From positions 1 to 56,246 of the IMG/VR virus record IMGVR_UViG_3300029448_000047: a DNA stretch of 56,246 nt. One strand, given 5' to 3'. The translations under genes and the position numbers were made by a program. The stretch comes from a virus. The notes below the pieces were generated by a model, which saw nothing but the letters and a program-made list of their open reading frames with translations, did no database searches and was not told the origin of the DNA. This document shows positions 8,368-56,246 of the stretch, one piece after another. Position 1 is the first letter of the stretch; each line of letters begins with the position of its first letter.

Positions 8368-9900
8368 ATGTCTCAAGCAAAAAAGTTAATGGATGCGTTC
8401 TGCGGATCGATAGCGGCGCACGGTACAACCACTGTAGGCAGGGTTGGACGCAACGGCAAAGCCGAGGCGAAGAGTATGATTGTTCGCGGACCTTTGACCG
8501 CTGAGTTAGTACAGGATCACATTGAGGGCCGTCAGGGTGTGGGATCTATACCTATTACCCAAGATAATTTGTGCATGTTCGGGGCTCTGGACATTGATAC
8601 CTATGATCTCAACCTGGTGGAGTTAAATGCCAAGGTTCAAAAGCTAGGGTTGCCCTTGGTGTTGTGTCGTTCCAAGTCGGGCGGCGCCCACCTCTATTTG
8701 TTTCTCAAGCAGTGGGAGCAAGCGGCCATGGTTCGAGAGTACCTGACCGAGATGTCTGTTGCCTTGGGGTTCTCCGGTTGTGAGATCTTTCCAAAGCAGG
8801 ACACTATCTTGGCGGAGCGTGGCGATGTGGGCAACTTTATAAACATGCCGTACTTTGGTGGGGATGTAACCACACGCTATGCCTTGGATAAGAAGGGCGA
8901 AGCTATGGACATGGCGCAGTTCTTTGCTGCGGTTGATGCAGCAAGGATAGACATTCCAGAGTTAAATGAACTTCAGTTTGGTGGAGAGAGAACACACTTT
9001 ACTGACGGGCCGTACTGCTTGGAGATCATTACTGGGCAGGGCTCTGTTACTGAACACCGGAACACGTTTATGTTTAACGTTGGCGTGTACTGCCGGTTGA
9101 AGTGGCCTGACAATTGGAAGAAGCATCACGAAGAATACAACAGGACGTTATGCAGCCCTGCCCTTGAGGCAACTGAGATCGTTGCGTTGCAGAAATCGTT
9201 GATGAAGAAAGAGTACTTCCTGCAATGCAGTGTGTGTCCGTTGAAAGATCACTGTGATGTACAGATCTGCAAGTCGCGTCAGTTTGGTGTGGGCAACTCG
9301 GCCCCAGATCGGGCCAACCTTGGTGGTCTGACAGTCATGTTATCGGAGCCTCGGCATTACTTCATGGATGTAGATGGTCAGCGGCTTCAGCTAACTGTTG
9401 AGCAATTGCAGAACCAAGGTCTTTGGCAGCGGTCATGCATGGAGCAACTCAACTTCATGCCGCCTCAAGTTAAGCCACAAGATTGGCAGGTTGCAATCAA
9501 CACCCTGATGAAGAACTCGGTCACCATAGATGTGCCTCCGGAACTCACGATCAAGGGGCAGTTCCATGAGATGCTCAAGACGTTTTGCACAAGTCGGATT
9601 AGGGCTTTGTCTCCGGAAGAAATGGAGATGGGCAAGCCTTGGACCGAGGACGGCGTGACGTACTTTACGATGGCTGGCTTGGAACAGTTTCTCAAGAACA
9701 GGCAGTTCACACATTACAAAGCGGTTCACATACAGGAACAGTTAAAGGCTTTGAACGATGGAGGAGATTGCCACCAGCAAAAGTATATTAAAAGAGAGAA
9801 CGGAAAGTCTAAAAAGTTACGTGTCTGGCATGTGCCGGCATTTGAAGATGAAGAAATAGAACTGGAACCAAAGGAGTTTAGTGATGACATCCCCTTCTGA
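8368..9900 (+). CDS. Archaeo-eukaryotic-type (AEP) primase
   Basis: A 510-residue primase/prim-pol. Seen: GALDIDTYD with metal-binding D75 and D77; CRSKSGGAHLYLFL at about 100-113 with the family His in GGAHL (about 108); EIFPKQ near 158; and VGNFINMPYF. This is the pattern of the TOTE-like/phage AEP catalytic core. A Cys cluster follows (CSVCPLKDHCDVQICKSRQ), probably a zinc or iron-sulfur site. It should make primers for PolA. The very C-terminus, EFSDDIPF, repeats the SSB-type tip. The start is fixed by AGGAGGG, six bases before ATG 8368. The 3' end overlaps the AlpA-like gene by 17 bases. Confidence 0.85.
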   Translation: MSQAKKLMDAFCGSIAAHGTTTVGRVGRNGKAEAKSMIVRGPLTAELVQDHIEGRQGVGSIPITQDNLCMFGALDIDTYDLNLVELNAKVQKLGLPLVLCRSKSGGAHLYLFLKQWEQAAMVREYLTEMSVALGFSGCEIFPKQDTILAERGDVGNFINMPYFGGDVTTRYALDKKGEAMDMAQFFAAVDAARIDIPELNELQFGGERTHFTDGPYCLEIITGQGSVTEHRNTFMFNVGVYCRLKWPDNWKKHHEEYNRTLCSPALEATEIVALQKSLMKKEYFLQCSVCPLKDHCDVQICKSRQFGVGNSAPDRANLGGLTVMLSEPRHYFMDVDGQRLQLTVEQLQNQGLWQRSCMEQLNFMPPQVKPQDWQVAINTLMKNSVTIDVPPELTIKGQFHEMLKTFCTSRIRALSPEEMEMGKPWTEDGVTYFTMAGLEQFLKNRQFTHYKAVHIQEQLKALNDGGDCHQQKYIKRENGKSKKLRVWHVPAFEDEEIELEPKEFSDDIPF

Positions 9901-10102
9901 ACAACGAAAGCTGCTGAAGATTGCGGAAATAACCGAGTGGTTGGGGGTATCCCATTCCACCATTTACAAGTGGGTAAGCGAGGACATCTTTCCACAGCCC
10001 ATATATCTTGGACCGGGCAAGGGCGATAAGAACAGCGCCACCCGTTGGGTCGAGGAAGAAGTTCTGGAGTGGCTAGCTCAACGTCCACGCGGTAAAGAGT
10101 GA
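9884..10102 (+). CDS. AlpA-family small DNA-binding regulator
   Basis: 72 residues with an AlpA/MerR-type helix-turn-helix: LLKIAEITEWLGVSHSTIYKW at about 10-30, then a wing with P-x-P-I-Y-L and the ending EVLEWL typical of AlpA proteins. Such proteins regulate phage genes or act as excisionases; with no integrase here, a transcription role is more likely. ATG 9884 is favoured by AAGGAG seven bases upstream. It overlaps the primase end and the helicase start. Confidence 0.82.
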   Translation: MTSPSEQRKLLKIAEITEWLGVSHSTIYKWVSEDIFPQPIYLGPGKGDKNSATRWVEEEVLEWLAQRPRGKE

Positions 10103-37970: not shown

Positions 37971-38426
37971 CTAAGCGTTGTTGCTTTGTGCATAGACAAC
38001 AGTGACTGCGCCAACACCATTTCCTGTGTTTGCCGTGGTCACGATCAGCCTGTGATCTCCTGTGCCTGTGTTCAGCCACTTTCCTGTGCGCGTTGCATCA
38101 GTACCTGGACTTGCCGCCACAATACCTACTGCGTTGCCCTGAATGGCTCCAGCCGCAGTTAGAGAGGTTGCCGCACCAACACCACCAAGACCAAGAGTTG
38201 TGGCTCCGCCGCTCCACGCAGTGGTTACAGTCACATCAATTGAAATTAACTGACTGTTTGGAGGGATTATAATGTCTGTGGTTGTGGTTGTGGCCGTCTG
38301 GTCAATCGCTGCTGTCTGGGACATGACCACAAATCCAGTGTTTTTCATGTCCGAACCAACCGTTGTTCCGGTGGTGTTCTTGATTGTTCCAGCCTTAATA
38401 GGGCCTGAAAAAGTTGTTGTACCCAT
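37971..38426 (-). CDS. Capsid-region beta-rich virion protein
   Basis: 151 residues. MGTTTFSGPIKAGTIKNTTGTT is a start I recognise in marine podophage and siphophage genes near the major capsid; those are uncharacterised virion proteins. ATG 38426 follows CAGGAG. It is the first gene downstream of the capsid's terminator. Confidence 0.75.
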   Translation of the reverse strand: MGTTTFSGPIKAGTIKNTTGTTVGSDMKNTGFVVMSQTAAIDQTATTTTTDIIIPPNSQLISIDVTVTTAWSGGATTLGLGGVGAATSLTAAGAIQGNAVGIVAASPGTDATRTGKWLNTGTGDHRLIVTTANTGNGVGAVTVVYAQSNNA

Positions 38427-38501
38427 GTTATTCTCCTGTCTGGGTTTGTCAGTCGCATCATGCAACTGTCAGGGATGAAAACATGATACAATATGTTTTT
38501 T

Positions 38502-48900: not shown

Positions 48901-51900
48901 CTAATCTCTTACAGCCACATCTTTAAATATTCTTGCTCTACGCCCAGGAACGTATGGTGTGTAATTACTCTCAATCATCTCCGGTACATAGTACGGACTG
49001 ATCTTCGGACGCTCCGTTGCCGGTATGTCAATCACGACATCCTCATCCTCTGTCTCTTCGGCAGGAGCCGCAGGAACGCCGGCAGAACCTTCTTCAATCT
49101 TGAGACAAATGTATCGACCCGTGGCAGGATCCAAAACACGGCGATAACCGGGAGGACAACCTTGGGCATCATTACTATCATCTGTCATATCTACAGGGAC
49201 AACAGCAGGGCGGTCATCACTAGGGCCGCTAGGTCCACCTTCCCTCTCCTCGGGAGGAAAAACATCGTCCGTGGGTAACTCAGGGAAGTATGGTGTTCCC
49301 TCTTGATCCTGAAGCTCTGTAAAATCTTTGCGCTCAGTATCAATGCCAGTAACAACTCGTCTTGTTGGCGGAACCTTACGCCGTTTCGCCGCGTCTTCAG
49401 CCGCATCCAAAGAACCCACGCCCTTCTTTAACTCTGCTTCGGTGGGTGTTGGTCTTTGCGCCGCAGCTAACTCATTCTCTTGTTCCGCGAACCGCGCACG
49501 TTGACGCGCCAAACGGTTTTCAAGACTAAAGGGATCCGGACCTAAATCACTTTTTATTTTTTGATCCGTCAACACCAATGGTTCTAGACTAGTTGTATCT
49601 ACCGGCGGAGTTCCTTCTTGAGATTTTAGGGCAGACACAGTTGAACGGACCTTTGGCATTGGCACTTTAGCCACCGCTTCCTCAAAAGATATCTCTGGAT
49701 CAGTCACCGGTACTGCGGCGTCCATCGCCTCTGGCGCCTTTCCACCACGAATTATCCTTGAAGGCTTTAATGCTCCAATTCCTTTATCCTCAAGGTCCAA
49801 AAGCAACTGTTCCTCAAGAGATGGAAGAGGGCCAGTGAAATTAAAATCTCCTTGAACTGGGATGCTTGGTCCTTGCATTGGAGGTATAATATCCGGTTCA
49901 CCAACAGATTCAGGTGAGGCGGCTACAAGCGGAGCCATCGCTGGGGCTTCTACGGGAGTAGTAAGGGCCGCTAACTGCGCTTTTGTTTGAGGAGTAGTAA
50001 ACTCTGGGGTGGCTGGTAAGTTAACAGGCAACGGTGTTTTACCCGCCGCTATAACTTCGTTAACTGCCTGAAGCTGCTCCATTTGATTGGCTAATTGATT
50101 AGCTAACGCAACCTCGTTTTCCGCAGCCGAAACATTACTCTGACTGTTAAGTATCGCATTCTGAGCAGTCTCCAAAGGCCGCATCGCCTCTGCTTCTGCT
50201 TCACCCTTCAAACGATTGGCAATAGCCCTGCGCCGATCAGCTTGCGCGGCCGGTGAATCTGTTAAAGGAATGTTAGACGGGAAGTTTCTTAATGATCCAA
50301 TGCCAGCAGGATCTACAGGCAATGACGTATCAAACGCTTCCATATTAGCAACTGCTTCCGCCTCGGCCTGCGTCTTGGCACGTTGCGCCCTAGCACGTTC
50401 AATATTATCCTGTTGTCGCTTCAACTGACGTTGAGGCGTATCCATCGCAGTCGGAACGGTAGACCCATACGGTCTAAACCTACCCAAATCCTCAATTAAA
50501 AATCGGCTTAAATCCTCCTTGGTCTTGGGAACAGAAGCAGAATCTGCGTCAACAGCACCTAACTCAGGGTTGCCGGCAGCACGGTTAGCCTCGGCTTGCT
50601 CAAACGCTATGTCCTGAAGTCTAGTATCAAGATCACCCCGAGCATCCGCTAAAAACGCAGCGTCAAAAGGCAAGTAATTAGGATCTTTCCTCAGTATTGC
50701 TTCCGTTAAAAAATCTGTACCAGCCGCGGCGCCAACAGACTTTGGTGCGCCACCAGGAACAAGTAAATCAAACTCTGCTTGAGCCTCGGGAGTAATCGCA
50801 GCCGCTTGCGCCGCAGCCGTATCAACTTGAGAAGGATCAAAGCCCCGCTGGTTTTCTAAACCAACTGGACCAACAAAGTTAGGATCACCTGAAACAGGGG
50901 CAACTGGACCAACAAAGTTAGGATCACCAGCCACCGGAGCAAGCTGAAGAGGACCAATGAACTCCGAAGATCCTGGCCTAGGCACAGCAGGAAGAGGACC
51001 AACAAAGTCTGGGTCACCCGGAACAGGGATCGTGCCACTTAATACATCTGCCGCCGCCGCCACGGTAGGTTGTGTCGGGCCAATGAAGTTAGGATCACCC
51101 GCTTGAGGAATAGTCGGACCTTGAGAAGGTTGAAGCGGACCAACAAAACCTGGGTCACCCGGAACAGGGATATTCGGTCCTTGCGGGGAAGGAAGAGGGC
51201 CAACAAAATCTGGATCACCCGGCTTGGGAGCAGATTCAATAGTCGGACCAACTCTAGATTGAGGTCCAAGACCCAAACCTTGAGCCACCGAAACGCCACC
51301 TGCCGCGGTGCTGCCACCAAGAAAACCAAGAATGCCAGACTCTTTGCGCTGGGCCGCAGTCTGCTTTAATGCCTGAGCATCGTTATACCAAGAAGGAATC
51401 TCCGCCTCAGCAATCTCCTGCATTCCCTCAGTCAAACCCTCAATTGCCATCCTAGATGCAGCTTCTACAGTCGGACCCACAACACCACGGCGCCCAGTTT
51501 GTGTGGCACCCTGAACCGCAGCCTTCTGAGAAATAGCCTTAGCCAAAGGCTTAGTAACCGCGCCATTTAAAACAGCGTTGGATAACGATCCACCCGCAGC
51601 ACTAATAGAAGCAACAATCGGAGCCGCCTGCTTGGAAATACCGCCAGCATACGCCAGAACCGCCTCAGCGTCAGAAAGACCCGTAGCCTTTAAATCCTGA
51701 AAACCAGGGGTGTTCTGTAAGCGTCCCTCGTCAAACTCCTTTTGAATAGCCCCCTCAATCTGAGAGTCCATGCCACCCACACCAAGAGTAACACCAGCAA
51801 CAACAGCCGCCGGCAAACTAGCTACCGCTGCCGCAGTGCTAACCGCAATAGAAGGAGCCATGTTCGCCAACTTAGTGCCAACATTGTCAAAACTTAATTC

Positions 51901-53691
51901 ACCTTCTAACTTTGCTTTTGCCTCATCACTCAAACGATCATATGCCGCCTGAGATCTTGCAACAGCAGGATCAACAACCTTCTCTCTATAAGCCTTTTGT
52001 AGATCCGTTTGCGGAGCCATAGCCTGCGCCATGGTTACATCACTATCAACATCAGCGCGGCCAACCCCCGGTCCGCCTCCCCGGTAGCCAATAGTACGGA
52101 AAAAGTCAGTACCATAATCAAGAGCTACATCGCCAGCCCGTGCAATATCCTCACCTAAACCATAAATACCCTGCTCTAAAGCAGTAAGGTTCCTGTCCGG
52201 TGGATCACCCCTGTAAACTCGGCGCTGTAATCCAAACTGATCTGGGGCCGTTTCAAAAGCACGGTTGCCCCTAACTTCAGTCTGTAAAGCAGAATCCATC
52301 GGAGCCCCTATCAACTCGTCAGGAAGAACTGTATTATAAACATTCCCCTCAGTCTCAGAACCAGGGCCATCGCGCCGACCCGGAGGAACCGAAACAGCAG
52401 GAGAAGGCTGAGGTACAGGCAAACTCGCAACACCGCCACCAGAGGTAGTCTCCAACTGTGCGTTAGGGCCTAAAATGTTCTCGTTTAAAAACTTCCCAAA
52501 ACCAGTGTCCCCTAACCCCGCAGACTCATAAGACGCTTCGTCAATAAAACGATCAGAACCCTCTTGATCTCGACGCTGCTGTTGCTGAAACAATATGTCC
52601 CTAACAGACTCAGGCGCACTAGGCTGAACATCCAACATGTCAGGACGCCGAACAGGACGATCCGCTAACGCAGGATCACCACCACCTAACTCAGGACTAT
52701 AAGTACTAGGACGAGAACCAGGATCAAACGAACTTAAAAAAAGCTCTGGATCCCCTCCCGGCGCCTTGGGAGCAGGCAATCCAAACGGAGCCGCGCCAAT
52801 GCCCCCAGGACCATAAGCCGCGTCCTGATACAAACTGTCATAATCAACAATCGGAGCCGCAGCCGGCGACACAGTAGTAGGGCGTAACTGTGGACGTAAA
52901 CTGGTCTTAGGCGCCCGGTCTATGTTAGTCGTAAACTGCTTGCCGCCAAACGTGAACGTACCACCATCACCGCCAGCCTTCCGTCGAGCCTCAGCAAACG
53001 CATCCCCAAATGAACTAGCCTCACCACTCAATGAACCACTGTTCATAATCGCGTCAACCTCACGCGATCCAGAGAAATTTGAACCAGCTACAGTGCCACC
53101 ATTCTTCTTAACACTGCCACCCTTCGTAACCTCATACCCAGCATCCGTTAACGCCTTGCGCTGCGCCGAAGTCATACCCTTCGTACCAATGCGCTGCCGA
53201 GGAGGACGAGGAGCCGATGATCCGCCACCACCACTCAAAGCACGAGCCGCAGCGCCCACTATGCCGCCACTACGAACGTAATTGCCAACAGCAGAAAATA
53301 TATTCTGATCTAAGGGATTAGCCCTAGCCTCAGCAGCACTCACATAACCATCGTTGTTCGTGTCAGCCCTAGCACCACCGCCACTGCCCGATACAGCGCC
53401 AGACTTGCCAGGACCACCGCCGTCAAACATATCAGCCAAACTAGTGTAACCGCCTGACGAACCGCCAGTGGATGCTTTAGAACTAGCCGTGGACATCTTT
53501 TTGTCATAACTCTTGTCCGCAAACTCAACCTTCTGACGGCCCTTGCCCTTAATATTTACAGCCTTGCCATGCTGACCATCACGCGCAGCCTCAGACAAAC
53601 TGTTGTACGTCTTGTCAGAACCGCCGCCGCCGCTGCCGCCCTCGTCACCACCGCCCCAAACAATCTGTGGCCTCTGCCAAACACTGAACAT
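48901..53691 (-). CDS. Very large Gly/Pro-rich virion-type protein
   Basis: 1596 residues. The N-terminal 130 are Gly/Ser-rich with an EF-hand-type loop DTNNDGYVSAAE at about 110-121. A helical, hydrophobic part (about 600-800) follows. Residues about 820-945 contain seven copies of a unit based on PGDPDFVGP. The C-terminus ends in CPPGYRRVLDPATGRYICL, a Cys pair block. It probably belongs to a virion (ejection or tail) protein. ATG 53691 is chosen over TTG 53694. Its ATG directly follows the HlyC-like gene's stop, indicating translational coupling. No close family is recognised. Confidence 0.65.
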   Translation of the reverse strand: MFSVWQRPQIVWGGGDEGGSGGGGSDKTYNSLSEAARDGQHGKAVNIKGKGRQKVEFADKSYDKKMSTASSKASTGGSSGGYTSLADMFDGGGPGKSGAVSGSGGGARADTNNDGYVSAAEARANPLDQNIFSAVGNYVRSGGIVGAAARALSGGGGSSAPRPPRQRIGTKGMTSAQRKALTDAGYEVTKGGSVKKNGGTVAGSNFSGSREVDAIMNSGSLSGEASSFGDAFAEARRKAGGDGGTFTFGGKQFTTNIDRAPKTSLRPQLRPTTVSPAAAPIVDYDSLYQDAAYGPGGIGAAPFGLPAPKAPGGDPELFLSSFDPGSRPSTYSPELGGGDPALADRPVRRPDMLDVQPSAPESVRDILFQQQQRRDQEGSDRFIDEASYESAGLGDTGFGKFLNENILGPNAQLETTSGGGVASLPVPQPSPAVSVPPGRRDGPGSETEGNVYNTVLPDELIGAPMDSALQTEVRGNRAFETAPDQFGLQRRVYRGDPPDRNLTALEQGIYGLGEDIARAGDVALDYGTDFFRTIGYRGGGPGVGRADVDSDVTMAQAMAPQTDLQKAYREKVVDPAVARSQAAYDRLSDEAKAKLEGELSFDNVGTKLANMAPSIAVSTAAAVASLPAAVVAGVTLGVGGMDSQIEGAIQKEFDEGRLQNTPGFQDLKATGLSDAEAVLAYAGGISKQAAPIVASISAAGGSLSNAVLNGAVTKPLAKAISQKAAVQGATQTGRRGVVGPTVEAASRMAIEGLTEGMQEIAEAEIPSWYNDAQALKQTAAQRKESGILGFLGGSTAAGGVSVAQGLGLGPQSRVGPTIESAPKPGDPDFVGPLPSPQGPNIPVPGDPGFVGPLQPSQGPTIPQAGDPNFIGPTQPTVAAAADVLSGTIPVPGDPDFVGPLPAVPRPGSSEFIGPLQLAPVAGDPNFVGPVAPVSGDPNFVGPVGLENQRGFDPSQVDTAAAQAAAITPEAQAEFDLLVPGGAPKSVGAAAGTDFLTEAILRKDPNYLPFDAAFLADARGDLDTRLQDIAFEQAEANRAAGNPELGAVDADSASVPKTKEDLSRFLIEDLGRFRPYGSTVPTAMDTPQRQLKRQQDNIERARAQRAKTQAEAEAVANMEAFDTSLPVDPAGIGSLRNFPSNIPLTDSPAAQADRRRAIANRLKGEAEAEAMRPLETAQNAILNSQSNVSAAENEVALANQLANQMEQLQAVNEVIAAGKTPLPVNLPATPEFTTPQTKAQLAALTTPVEAPAMAPLVAASPESVGEPDIIPPMQGPSIPVQGDFNFTGPLPSLEEQLLLDLEDKGIGALKPSRIIRGGKAPEAMDAAVPVTDPEISFEEAVAKVPMPKVRSTVSALKSQEGTPPVDTTSLEPLVLTDQKIKSDLGPDPFSLENRLARQRARFAEQENELAAAQRPTPTEAELKKGVGSLDAAEDAAKRRKVPPTRRVVTGIDTERKDFTELQDQEGTPYFPELPTDDVFPPEEREGGPSGPSDDRPAVVPVDMTDDSNDAQGCPPGYRRVLDPATGRYICLKIEEGSAGVPAAPAEETEDEDVVIDIPATERPKISPYYVPEMIESNYTPYVPGRRARIFKDVAVRD

Positions 53692-53694
53692 CAA

Positions 53695-54087
53695 TCAAAT
53701 TCCCCTGTTTAAAACCGAAGCTAACCTTGATCCGCGGTGCGAACGTATCCGAACAATCTCCGGAAACTCTCGATTGAAAAAATCCCGAACATCCCTTGAT
53801 ATAAACAATACATCAGAAAGACCCCCCTTGGCAATCATATCTATAACAACCAAACAATCACCGTAATCACGAGCAAATACCTCCAATCCACAATACTCAT
53901 TGGAAATGTACTCCGCATCCGTCAAAAATGCCCAACTCACAAAACCCATGTAACGATCACCGTCCCAATAATGACGTACCTTCCCAGAAGCCTCAGCAGG
54001 CAATAAGCGCCAACCAATCGTCGCTGACCGAAAACCGCAATACGGCTCCTCACTGCACCACAACTCAATCGCATTCAATAAACCCAT
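53695..54087 (-). CDS. HlyC/RTX-type lysine acyltransferase-like protein
   Basis: 130 residues. LLPAEASGKVRHYWDGDRYMG, SWAFLTDAE (51-59), VVIDMIA (D83) and FFNREFPEIVRIR follow the order of the RTX toxin-activating acyltransferase HlyC, which transfers a fatty acyl chain from ACP to a lysine of the toxin. D83 matches HlyC's catalytic Asp; Tyr16 sits where HlyC has the catalytic His, so activity is doubtful or different (alignment from memory). First gene of the late region and directly coupled to the 1596-residue protein, which could be its substrate. A GNAT-type enzyme is an alternative. Confidence 0.6.
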   Translation of the reverse strand: MGLLNAIELWCSEEPYCGFRSATIGWRLLPAEASGKVRHYWDGDRYMGFVSWAFLTDAEYISNEYCGLEVFARDYGDCLVVIDMIAKGGLSDVLFISRDVRDFFNREFPEIVRIRSHRGSRLASVLNRGI

Positions 54088-55094: not shown

Positions 55095-55121
55095 GGCTAG
55101 CCTATGTGATGTAGGCTAGCC
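55095..55121 (+). promoter_or_regulatory. Leader hairpin with GGCTAGCCTA stem
   Basis: Perfect 10-bp stem GGCTAGCCTA/TAGGCTAGCC (55095-55104 with 55112-55121), 7-base loop. It lies 28 bases before the zinc-ribbon gene. No T-run, so not a typical terminator; likely mRNA stability or protein/RNA recognition. The GGCTAGC core matches the iteron core further downstream. Confidence 0.55.
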
Positions 55122-55122
55122 A

Positions 55123-55145
55123 TACGTTAACCAGAAAGAGGAAAG
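55123..55145 (+). repeat. Repeated leader motif TACGTTAACCAGAAA, copy 1
   Basis: TACGTTAACCAGAAA followed by GAGGAAAG, 23 bases, immediately before ATG 55149. An almost identical copy (22 of 23) precedes the last gene at 55677-55699; looser forms (CAGAAAAGAGGTAAG) precede 54439 and 54882. Includes the ribosome site, so probably a shared translation-control element. Confidence 0.65.
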
Positions 55146-55148
55146 ACA

Positions 55149-55394
55149 ATGCCAGATATTTATTGCGGACACTGTGGCGAACCATGGGAAATGGACACGC
55201 TACATGATGTAGTAAGCGAGGGTAACGCAACGAACTACCGAGATGCTGCTCACAAGTTCACTAAGTTCGGATGCGGCATCATGATGTACCCCACGGCCGG
55301 CACATGTACTAATCCGGTAGTGGATCAATACGCGGCCGACCGTGCTAGGGTAAACCATATCATGTCACCCCATCCAGATGAATGGATGGAATAG
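55149..55394 (+). CDS. Zinc-ribbon-start small protein
   Basis: 81 residues. IYCGHCGEPWEMDTLHDV at the N-terminus, a CxxCGEPWE pattern I know from small phage proteins (also in actinophages), followed by a Cys near 42 and another near 53 (TCTNP) that may complete a zinc site. Role unknown. AGGAAAG precedes the ATG; a terminator follows. Confidence 0.75.
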   Translation: MPDIYCGHCGEPWEMDTLHDVVSEGNATNYRDAAHKFTKFGCGIMMYPTAGTCTNPVVDQYAADRARVNHIMSPHPDEWME

Positions 55395-55398
55395 AACC

Positions 55399-55423
55399 AG
55401 GGGCCCTTCGGGGCCCTTTTTTT
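55399..55423 (+). terminator. Rho-independent terminator with UUCG loop
   Basis: Stem AGGGGCCC/GGGCCCTT (six G-C pairs plus G-U and A-U), loop TTCG, and seven T (55117-equivalent run at 55417-55423). Directly follows the zinc-ribbon gene stop. Ends this transcription unit before the iteron-like block. Confidence 0.9.
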
Positions 55424-55463
55424 ATGCCGCGTTGGGCGCGATCCGCGCCGGCCGGCGGACGCG

Positions 55464-55583
55464 CAGGGCGCAGACATGCAAGCGACCGACCCTGGCTAGC
55501 GGGGGCGCAGACATCTATATATTACCCTGGCTAGCGGGGGCGCAGACATATCGGCCGGCCGGCCGGCTAGCGGGGGCGCAGAC
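55464..55583. repeat. Four iteron-like direct repeats (core GCGCAGAC)
   Basis: Three copies of GGCTAGCGGGGGCGCAGAC (55494-55512, 55529-55547, 55565-55583) plus a partial copy (GGGCGCAGAC at 55466-55475). Ends are 37, 35 and 36 bases apart. Spacers are 16-18 bases. No gene spans it. Likely a protein-binding array, e.g. replication origin or packaging site. An AT-rich tract follows at 55609-55642. Confidence 0.8.
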
Positions 55584-55676
55584 CTGCGACCCTGGAATCG
55601 AATACCTCGATGTATTTTTGACTATATAGACCTACAAATATGTTGCCGCTGCGCGACCGATACTATAGACTAAACC

Positions 55677-55699
55677 TACGTTAACCAGAAATAGGAAAG
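55677..55699 (+). repeat. Repeated leader motif TACGTTAACCAGAAA, copy 2
   Basis: Matches the motif at 55123-55145 in 22 of 23 positions (T for G in the middle). Placed 11 bases before ATG 55711 and supplies the AGGAAAGG ribosome site. Confidence 0.65.
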
Positions 55700-55710
55700 G
55701 AATCCGACTC

Positions 55711-56246
55711 ATGAAATCCGGTATCATATACAAAGGGCAAAGCCTCTTGAATGGTAAACCAGTTGTTGCCATTGCAACATATAGCGACCGCAACACAAAG
55801 ACAGGCAAGGTTTTACAGACCTATATAATCCGGTCTGACATCTCCCCTCTTGATGCAAGCAAGACAGGCGCAGACTTCTCTATCTGTGGTGACTGTAAAT
55901 TCAGGGGGACACCGACAACAGACCCTAAGCGCAAGCAAGCAGTCAAGCGTGACTGTTATGTTAACCTCGGGCAAGGCCCGACCATTGTATATAAATCATT
56001 CTTACGTGGTACTTATCCCATGGCAGATAACAGGGGGGATCGCATGACACTAGGGGCCGGCCGTGTTGTTAGGCTTGGCACGTATGGGGATCCTGCAGCA
56101 ATTCCATCATGGGTATGGGATCAACTATTGACCAGTTGCGCGACTCATCTGGCATACACGCATCAATCCGGCTTTCGTCCAGATATTGCAATGCAAAGCG
56201 CAGACACCAAAGCGCAAGCGGTCGCACATTGGAACAACGGCCGGCG
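55711..56246 (+). CDS. Conserved phage protein with CGDC cluster (partial)
   Basis: Open from ATG 55711 to the window edge (178 complete codons, no stop). Seen: SLLNGKPVVAIAT, VLQTYIIRSDISPLDASKTG, SICGDCKFRG, KRDCYVNLGQGPTIVY, RLGTYGDPAAIPSWVWDQLL and LAYTHQSGF. I recall this from many phages as an uncharacterised family with this layout. The C-G-D-C and later Cys suggest a metal site. It lies next to the iteron-like array, so a replication or packaging role is possible; that is inferred. The 3' end, expected to contain more Cys, is missing. Confidence 0.85.
   Translation, partial: MKSGIIYKGQSLLNGKPVVAIATYSDRNTKTGKVLQTYIIRSDISPLDASKTGADFSICGDCKFRGTPTTDPKRKQAVKRDCYVNLGQGPTIVYKSFLRGTYPMADNRGDRMTLGAGRVVRLGTYGDPAAIPSWVWDQLLTSCATHLAYTHQSGFRPDIAMQSADTKAQAVAHWNNGR

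Follow-up and report, generated by a model that had tools for sequence, protein, structure and literature searches.

The window, by which is meant the whole stretch of DNA that was analysed, is a phage record of 56,246 bases which is called linear. Relatives bridge the end of the window to its start by way of some 3.5 kb not contained in it, and because they run from the one into the other in this manner the genome is circular or circularly permuted, with a length of about 60 kb. The TerL it encodes is 50-60% identical to those of the Pelagibacter phages HTVC027P and HTVC023P, phage DSL-LC04 and 023Pt_psg01, a replication module comprising Pam3-like proteins, a primase, a helicase and PolA lies on the + strand, and the lineage is abundant in marine viromes, in which at least 599 stretches encode a relative of its terL. 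A search for the host by way of terL in genome contigs found none, megablast and blastn comparisons with annotated phages returned no near relative of the array region, and the literature searched contained no description of replication or packaging sites for this lineage.

The array that is the subject of the present work, array 1, occupies a gap between two + strand genes near the right end of the window. On its left the upstream operon (gene 55149-55394) is closed by an intrinsic terminator at 55399-55425 on the + strand (GGGGCCC-TTCG-GGGCCC followed by a T7 run, -15.7 kcal/mol), which forms the border of the gap (55399-55418); the preliminary description, which had the gap bounded by terminators, was right about this side only, since no + strand terminator was found on the other. 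The repeats all lie on the + strand and consist of a partial copy of about 14 bp, GGGCGCAGACATGC, at 55466-55479 (repeat family D2), and three exact copies of the 19-mer GGCTAGCGGGGGCGCAGAC at 55494-55512, 55529-55547 and 55565-55583. They are followed by an AT-rich tract at 55600-55642, which had been correctly recognized from the outset (70% AT, against 52% in the window), and by a putative sigma70-like promoter, TTGCCG-17-TAGACT, read from the sequence at 55643-55671 on the + strand. The gene downstream, g2554 (55711-56246, + strand), runs off the window after 178 of the 232 amino acids of its phrog_2554 protein, which bears a weak resemblance to DUF7227 and the GP88 superfamily. A leader of the form CGTTAACCAGAAA(G/T)AGGAAAG, which resembles a start-associated sequence, precedes both small + strand gene starts, at 55125-55150 and at 55679-55700.

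Copies of the GGGCGCAGAC type start at 55466, 55503, 55538 and 55574, giving spacings of 37, 35 and 36 bp. The word GGCGCAG occurs four times in 55396-55710, where 0.06 occurrences are expected and where 2000 dinucleotide shuffles yielded two at most, and in none of these shuffles did a word of more than 10 bases occur three times inside 120 bp. The four repeats first described at a spacing of 35-37 bases are therefore confirmed in their starts and spacing and exceed chance, with the correction that the first is only partial; relatives carry extra full or partial copies at its position. The regular helical phasing that had been attributed to them does not hold, since a spacing of 35-37 bp corresponds to 3.3-3.5 turns, which places the copies out of helical phase. 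A CRISPR had been argued against, and rightly so, since such an array would combine cas genes with repeats some 23-50 bp long and with spacers that are unique and about as long as the repeats: the cores are 19 bp long and the spacers, of 16-18 bp, are common to relatives. An Rfam search found no RNA element matching the array, and an origin of the repeat in the host was considered and rejected, the 18-mer GCTAGCGGGGGCGCAGAC having a single isolated match in 84,980 bacterial and archaeal genomes. The nearby hairpin that had been singled out for its GGCTAGC stem is real (55095-55121, + strand, -19.8 kcal/mol, z -4.5) and has GGCTAGC in both arms without a T run; it is at most a conjectural part of array 1.

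The same 18-mer is found exactly in 15 other viral contigs, most of which show two arrays, the rest being fragments. In the closest relatives, where the copies are 36 bp apart, the 18-mer occurs exactly two or three times and is joined by additional variants; those of their contigs that extend sufficiently show a second cluster, made of GGGGCGCAG words, about 1.3-2 kb beyond array 1. This second cluster is array 2. Relatives gathered through the gene at 55711 gave 80 loci with 72-100% identity. Wherever a locus is long enough, g2554 is followed by variable small genes, array 2, and then the nuclease gene and terS in the opposite direction. Array 2 stands 0.8-1.6 kb past the start of g2554, where the nuclease gene next to terS has its 3' end, and thus falls in the stretch of about 3.5 kb that is absent from the window. 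A hexamer count that was run unsupervised, with no motif set in advance, showed for most relatives that one and the same hexamer is enriched on either side of g2554. All 73 typed loci possess array 2, whereas array 1 occurs in 49 of them and is absent from the other 24.

Among the 49 loci with both arrays, the word is shared by the two in 46, concordances that are not independent because the loci are related; two further loci are mixed and one, L045, is discordant. This last locus looks like a natural recombinant, its array 1 being made up of GCGCAG words and its array 2 of CCGCAG words. The words of the lineage are GGCGCAG, GGCGCAA, GCCGCAG, GCCGCAA and CCCGAC (the first four in the hexamer forms GCGCAG, GCGCAA, CCGCAG and CCGCAA), and the word type changes at least six times on protein trees. 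Copies are strongly biased towards one strand, by 242 to 18 in array 1 and by 442 to 15 in array 2. Their spacing is not conserved, a loss named beforehand as refuting the first reading: elsewhere in the lineage the repeats form pairs 28-50 bp apart or tandem units of 7-8 bp. Long contigs contain few clusters of this kind, and among the clusters checked, which were not all of them, several of the others are intragenic. That the word is shared by the two arrays of a phage and differs between phages suggests that the arrays are control sites bound by a protein.

A doubtful alternative is that nothing reads the word at all, in which case the arrays would be short tandem repeats that arise by slippage in the only unconstrained gaps and are kept alike by gene conversion, and they may in addition act as recombination junctions for the exchange of cassettes. 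Free variation of copy number and spacing, the rapid turnover of words, the lack of any co-varying protein among those compared, the variability of the bracketed genes and the disagreement between the arrays of L045 are all what such a process would produce. It accounts poorly, however, for positions that are fixed in all relatives, including cultured relatives with unrelated words, for the strong strand bias, for the tie of array 1 to a promoter which is described below, and for the better conservation of the cores than of the spacers (mean column identities in array 1 of 98.0% and 88.6%, respectively, in 14 aligned sequences).

The promoter at 55643-55671 was not picked up by a strict consensus scan. 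Under a relaxed definition, a sigma70-like promoter follows array 1 within at most 130 bp in 35 of 42 distinct loci, compared to 4.3 expected from shuffling. Such a promoter was found in 30 of 40 distinct loci with array 1, against 3 of 12 without it, and all three promoters in the latter group overlie the end of the upstream gene. On the evidence of the sequences, array 1 and promoter-like sequence thus come and go together, at a distance from each other that varies from 12 to 83 bp. The adjoining promoter that an operator would have is found with array 1 only, since none was identified behind array 2; because array 2 is moreover present in 73 of 73 loci, even those that lack array 1, promoter control by itself is insufficient to account for the pair.

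Comparison of the sequences establishes the arrays, their common word, their one-strand orientation, the conservation of their positions and the association of array 1 with a promoter-like sequence. The reading of them that is favoured here, tentatively and with somewhat less than even confidence, is that the repeats of array 1 are clustered binding sites through which the promoter of the g2554 operon is controlled, in concert with array 2, where the word of array 1 is repeated beyond the operon's end. A sequence-specific protein would recognize the word at array 1 and, from there, control the downstream promoter at 55643-55671 and hence transcription of the g2554 operon. The two homotypic arrays, which bracket the operon, could be bound by the protein cooperatively, perhaps with looping of the intervening DNA.

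The link between the arrays and expression is indirect and comes from one phage, HTVC027P. In this cultured relative, arrays of the heptamer CAAGCYN lie on both sides of gp33, a gene of the GP88 family, and abut its TTGACA box, while a further CAAGCYN array abuts the TTGACA box of gp34. A transcriptome study places gp33 and gp34 in a separate expression cluster that is highly expressed at 6-9 h (PMC12753301), with the reservation that its domain note for gp34 fits gp33 of the record, so that the gene numbers in the paper may be shifted by one. The arrangement resembles that in the lineage of the window in having arrays upstream of a promoter and downstream of a GP88-superfamily gene, with the array 2 counterpart at the 3' end of the nuclease gene; it differs in its word and in the extra array upstream of gp34. 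A BLASTP comparison of g2554 with HTVC027P gp33 showed no relation, and the two share only weak DUF7227 matches. HTVC023P, the other cultured relative compared, has three longer repeats after the 3' end of its nuclease gene. Among systems already characterized, the stoperators of mycobacteriophage L5 and OL/OR of lambda are multi-site phage operators with both promoter-proximal and distant sites, and they are alike in repeating a lineage-specific word close to a promoter and far from it; the present arrays differ in being built of tandem or spaced GC-rich units of 7-8 bp and in that no repressor gene was identified.

The protein encoded at 55711 and an AlpA-like protein had been proposed as the binding partners, and for both of them the expected co-variation with the word fails. 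Phages whose words differ can have g2554 proteins as much as 97.4% identical, TerS is 94.4% identical between such phages, and the AlpA-like protein is nearly the same in G017, with the word CCGCAA, and in G033, with CCCGAC; this near-identity across different words makes it improbable that any of the three sets the word. The recognition helix of the AlpA-like protein does differ between lineages, an STIYKW helix accompanying GCAG words and SY(I/V)YKL accompanying GCAA words in six contigs, and the protein was rejected as the reader because G033, the CCCGAC phage, breaks this correspondence. Tests on trees and on alignment columns of g2554, the nuclease and TerS against word type gave no cleanly co-varying position, and no protein tracking the word was found among g2554, TerS and the AlpA-like protein in contigs that are partly fragments. 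As a DNA-binding initiator the protein encoded at 55711 was likewise set aside, its AlphaFold model being of moderate confidence (pLDDT 69) and without a significant match in the PDB; its viral matches are to unnamed, GP88 and DUF7227 proteins only, and the predicted structure offers no functional clue. The AlpA-like helix-turn-helix protein is encoded at 9881-10102 on the + strand of the window, between the primase and the helicase, and is 100% identical in 14 close relatives.

The name of an iteron-like array, given in the preliminary description, fits a same-strand, word-specific and conserved cluster which lies beside AT-rich DNA, as the direct repeats of an iteron origin do. The conserved, helically phased spacing of such origins is missing, as is presence of array 1 throughout the lineage, and the origin function that was proposed with the name is not supported: array 1 is absent from 24 of the 73 loci, and the turn of the skew in the window coincides with divergent transcription. 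The skew at fourfold sites in the lineage of the window peaks to the left and right of the region that contains the arrays and falls almost to zero inside that region. In HTVC027P, HTVC023P and 023Pt_psg01, whose genes are mostly in one direction, it follows the direction of the genes, and no separate turn was seen at the corresponding place beyond the effect of a few reversed genes. Since the skew is confounded by transcription and has no turn of its own in the mostly one-directional relatives, array 1 is unsupported, though conceivable, as a replication origin. A broader form of the idea is unlikely, in which a phage initiator would bind both arrays as iterons, array 2 being indispensable and array 1, with its AT-rich DNA, a second site; it draws on the same-strand clusters, on the AT-rich DNA beside array 1, on the two sites about 1-2 kb apart and on the skew pattern, and it is weakened by the confounding just described, by the dispensability of array 1, by the fact that no initiator gene was identified, and by an array upstream of terS that is at least as origin-like. 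The two-array origins of plasmid P1 (oriR/incA) and phage P4 (ori/crr) each contain two clusters of one short word. They resemble the present arrays, as far as sequence comparison goes, in having one-word clusters around a small operon or replicon region with AT-rich DNA beside one of them; here, by contrast, no initiator gene was identified, word and spacing vary, and one cluster is dispensable.

The other function first suggested, that of a packaging site, has in its favour that array 2 adjoins terS, and against it that the word is not tracked by TerS. In its fuller form this reading makes array 2 a terminase-binding packaging site like the R sites of lambda cosB, with array 1 a relic or an accessory, and it appears quite improbable. 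Array 2 is indeed universal and directional, and it sits at the 3' end of the nuclease gene that neighbours terS, roughly 1 kb away from the terS start; the cultured phages HTVC023P and HTVC027P likewise have repeats at the 3' end of that gene. In lambda cosB and P1 pac, several short terminase-binding words (the R sites and hexamers, respectively) lie near terS, and array 2 is similar in containing several copies of a short word in such a place. Yet the near-identity of TerS across different words is not what a terminase site would show, array 1 is dispensable and far from terS, and a separate array of seven words directly upstream of terS looks more pac-like.

This separate array, which also falls in the stretch of about 3.5 kb absent from the window, is built from a lineage-specific word other than that of arrays 1 and 2, repeated several times on both strands, and is present in nearly every relative that could be tested. 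The word is 7-8 bp long and occurs in about 4-8 copies, at L012:10430-10610 and, in other loci, 420 bp upstream of terS. The region aligns closely in nine phages of the genus of the window, where the word stands at some seven fixed sites, in the order three direct, one inverted, two direct, one inverted. All of these sites bear the word peculiar to the phage in question, the last of them less strictly, and they switch word together, while the intervening DNA is well conserved. Such a layout is reminiscent of P1 pac with its seven hexamers, and the array is a better candidate for a pac site or an origin than array 1. Its word is tracked neither by TerS, which is identical in L020 and L026 despite different words, nor by the AlpA-like protein. 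With words of arrays 1 and 2 that switch together and an independent set of seven upstream of terS, the phages could be imagined to possess lineage-specific passwords, dedicated readers of which would direct replication, packaging or expression to their own genome during co-infection with relatives, a proposal that is speculative and probably incorrect.

Arrays that keep their positions while the word at both ends of an operon changes in step offer a natural experiment on how DNA-binding specificity changes, as well as exact targets for tests of origin, packaging and regulatory function, including in the cultured phage HTVC027P. Elsewhere in the window, a Pfam match of the HlyC type (RTX acyltransferase family) is found at 53695-54087 on the - strand, beside the gene of a 1597-amino-acid protein (48901-53694, - strand). 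An Rfam match to the Mu-gpT-DE RNA (38424-38474, - strand; score 59.2, gathering score 49) lies next to the point where the gene region of the major head protein begins. Upstream of a methyltransferase, an acidic protein (26-403 on the + strand of the window; L012:11820-12248) is 37-97% identical between otherwise close phages, and reaches 97% in two phages whose words upstream of terS are one base apart.
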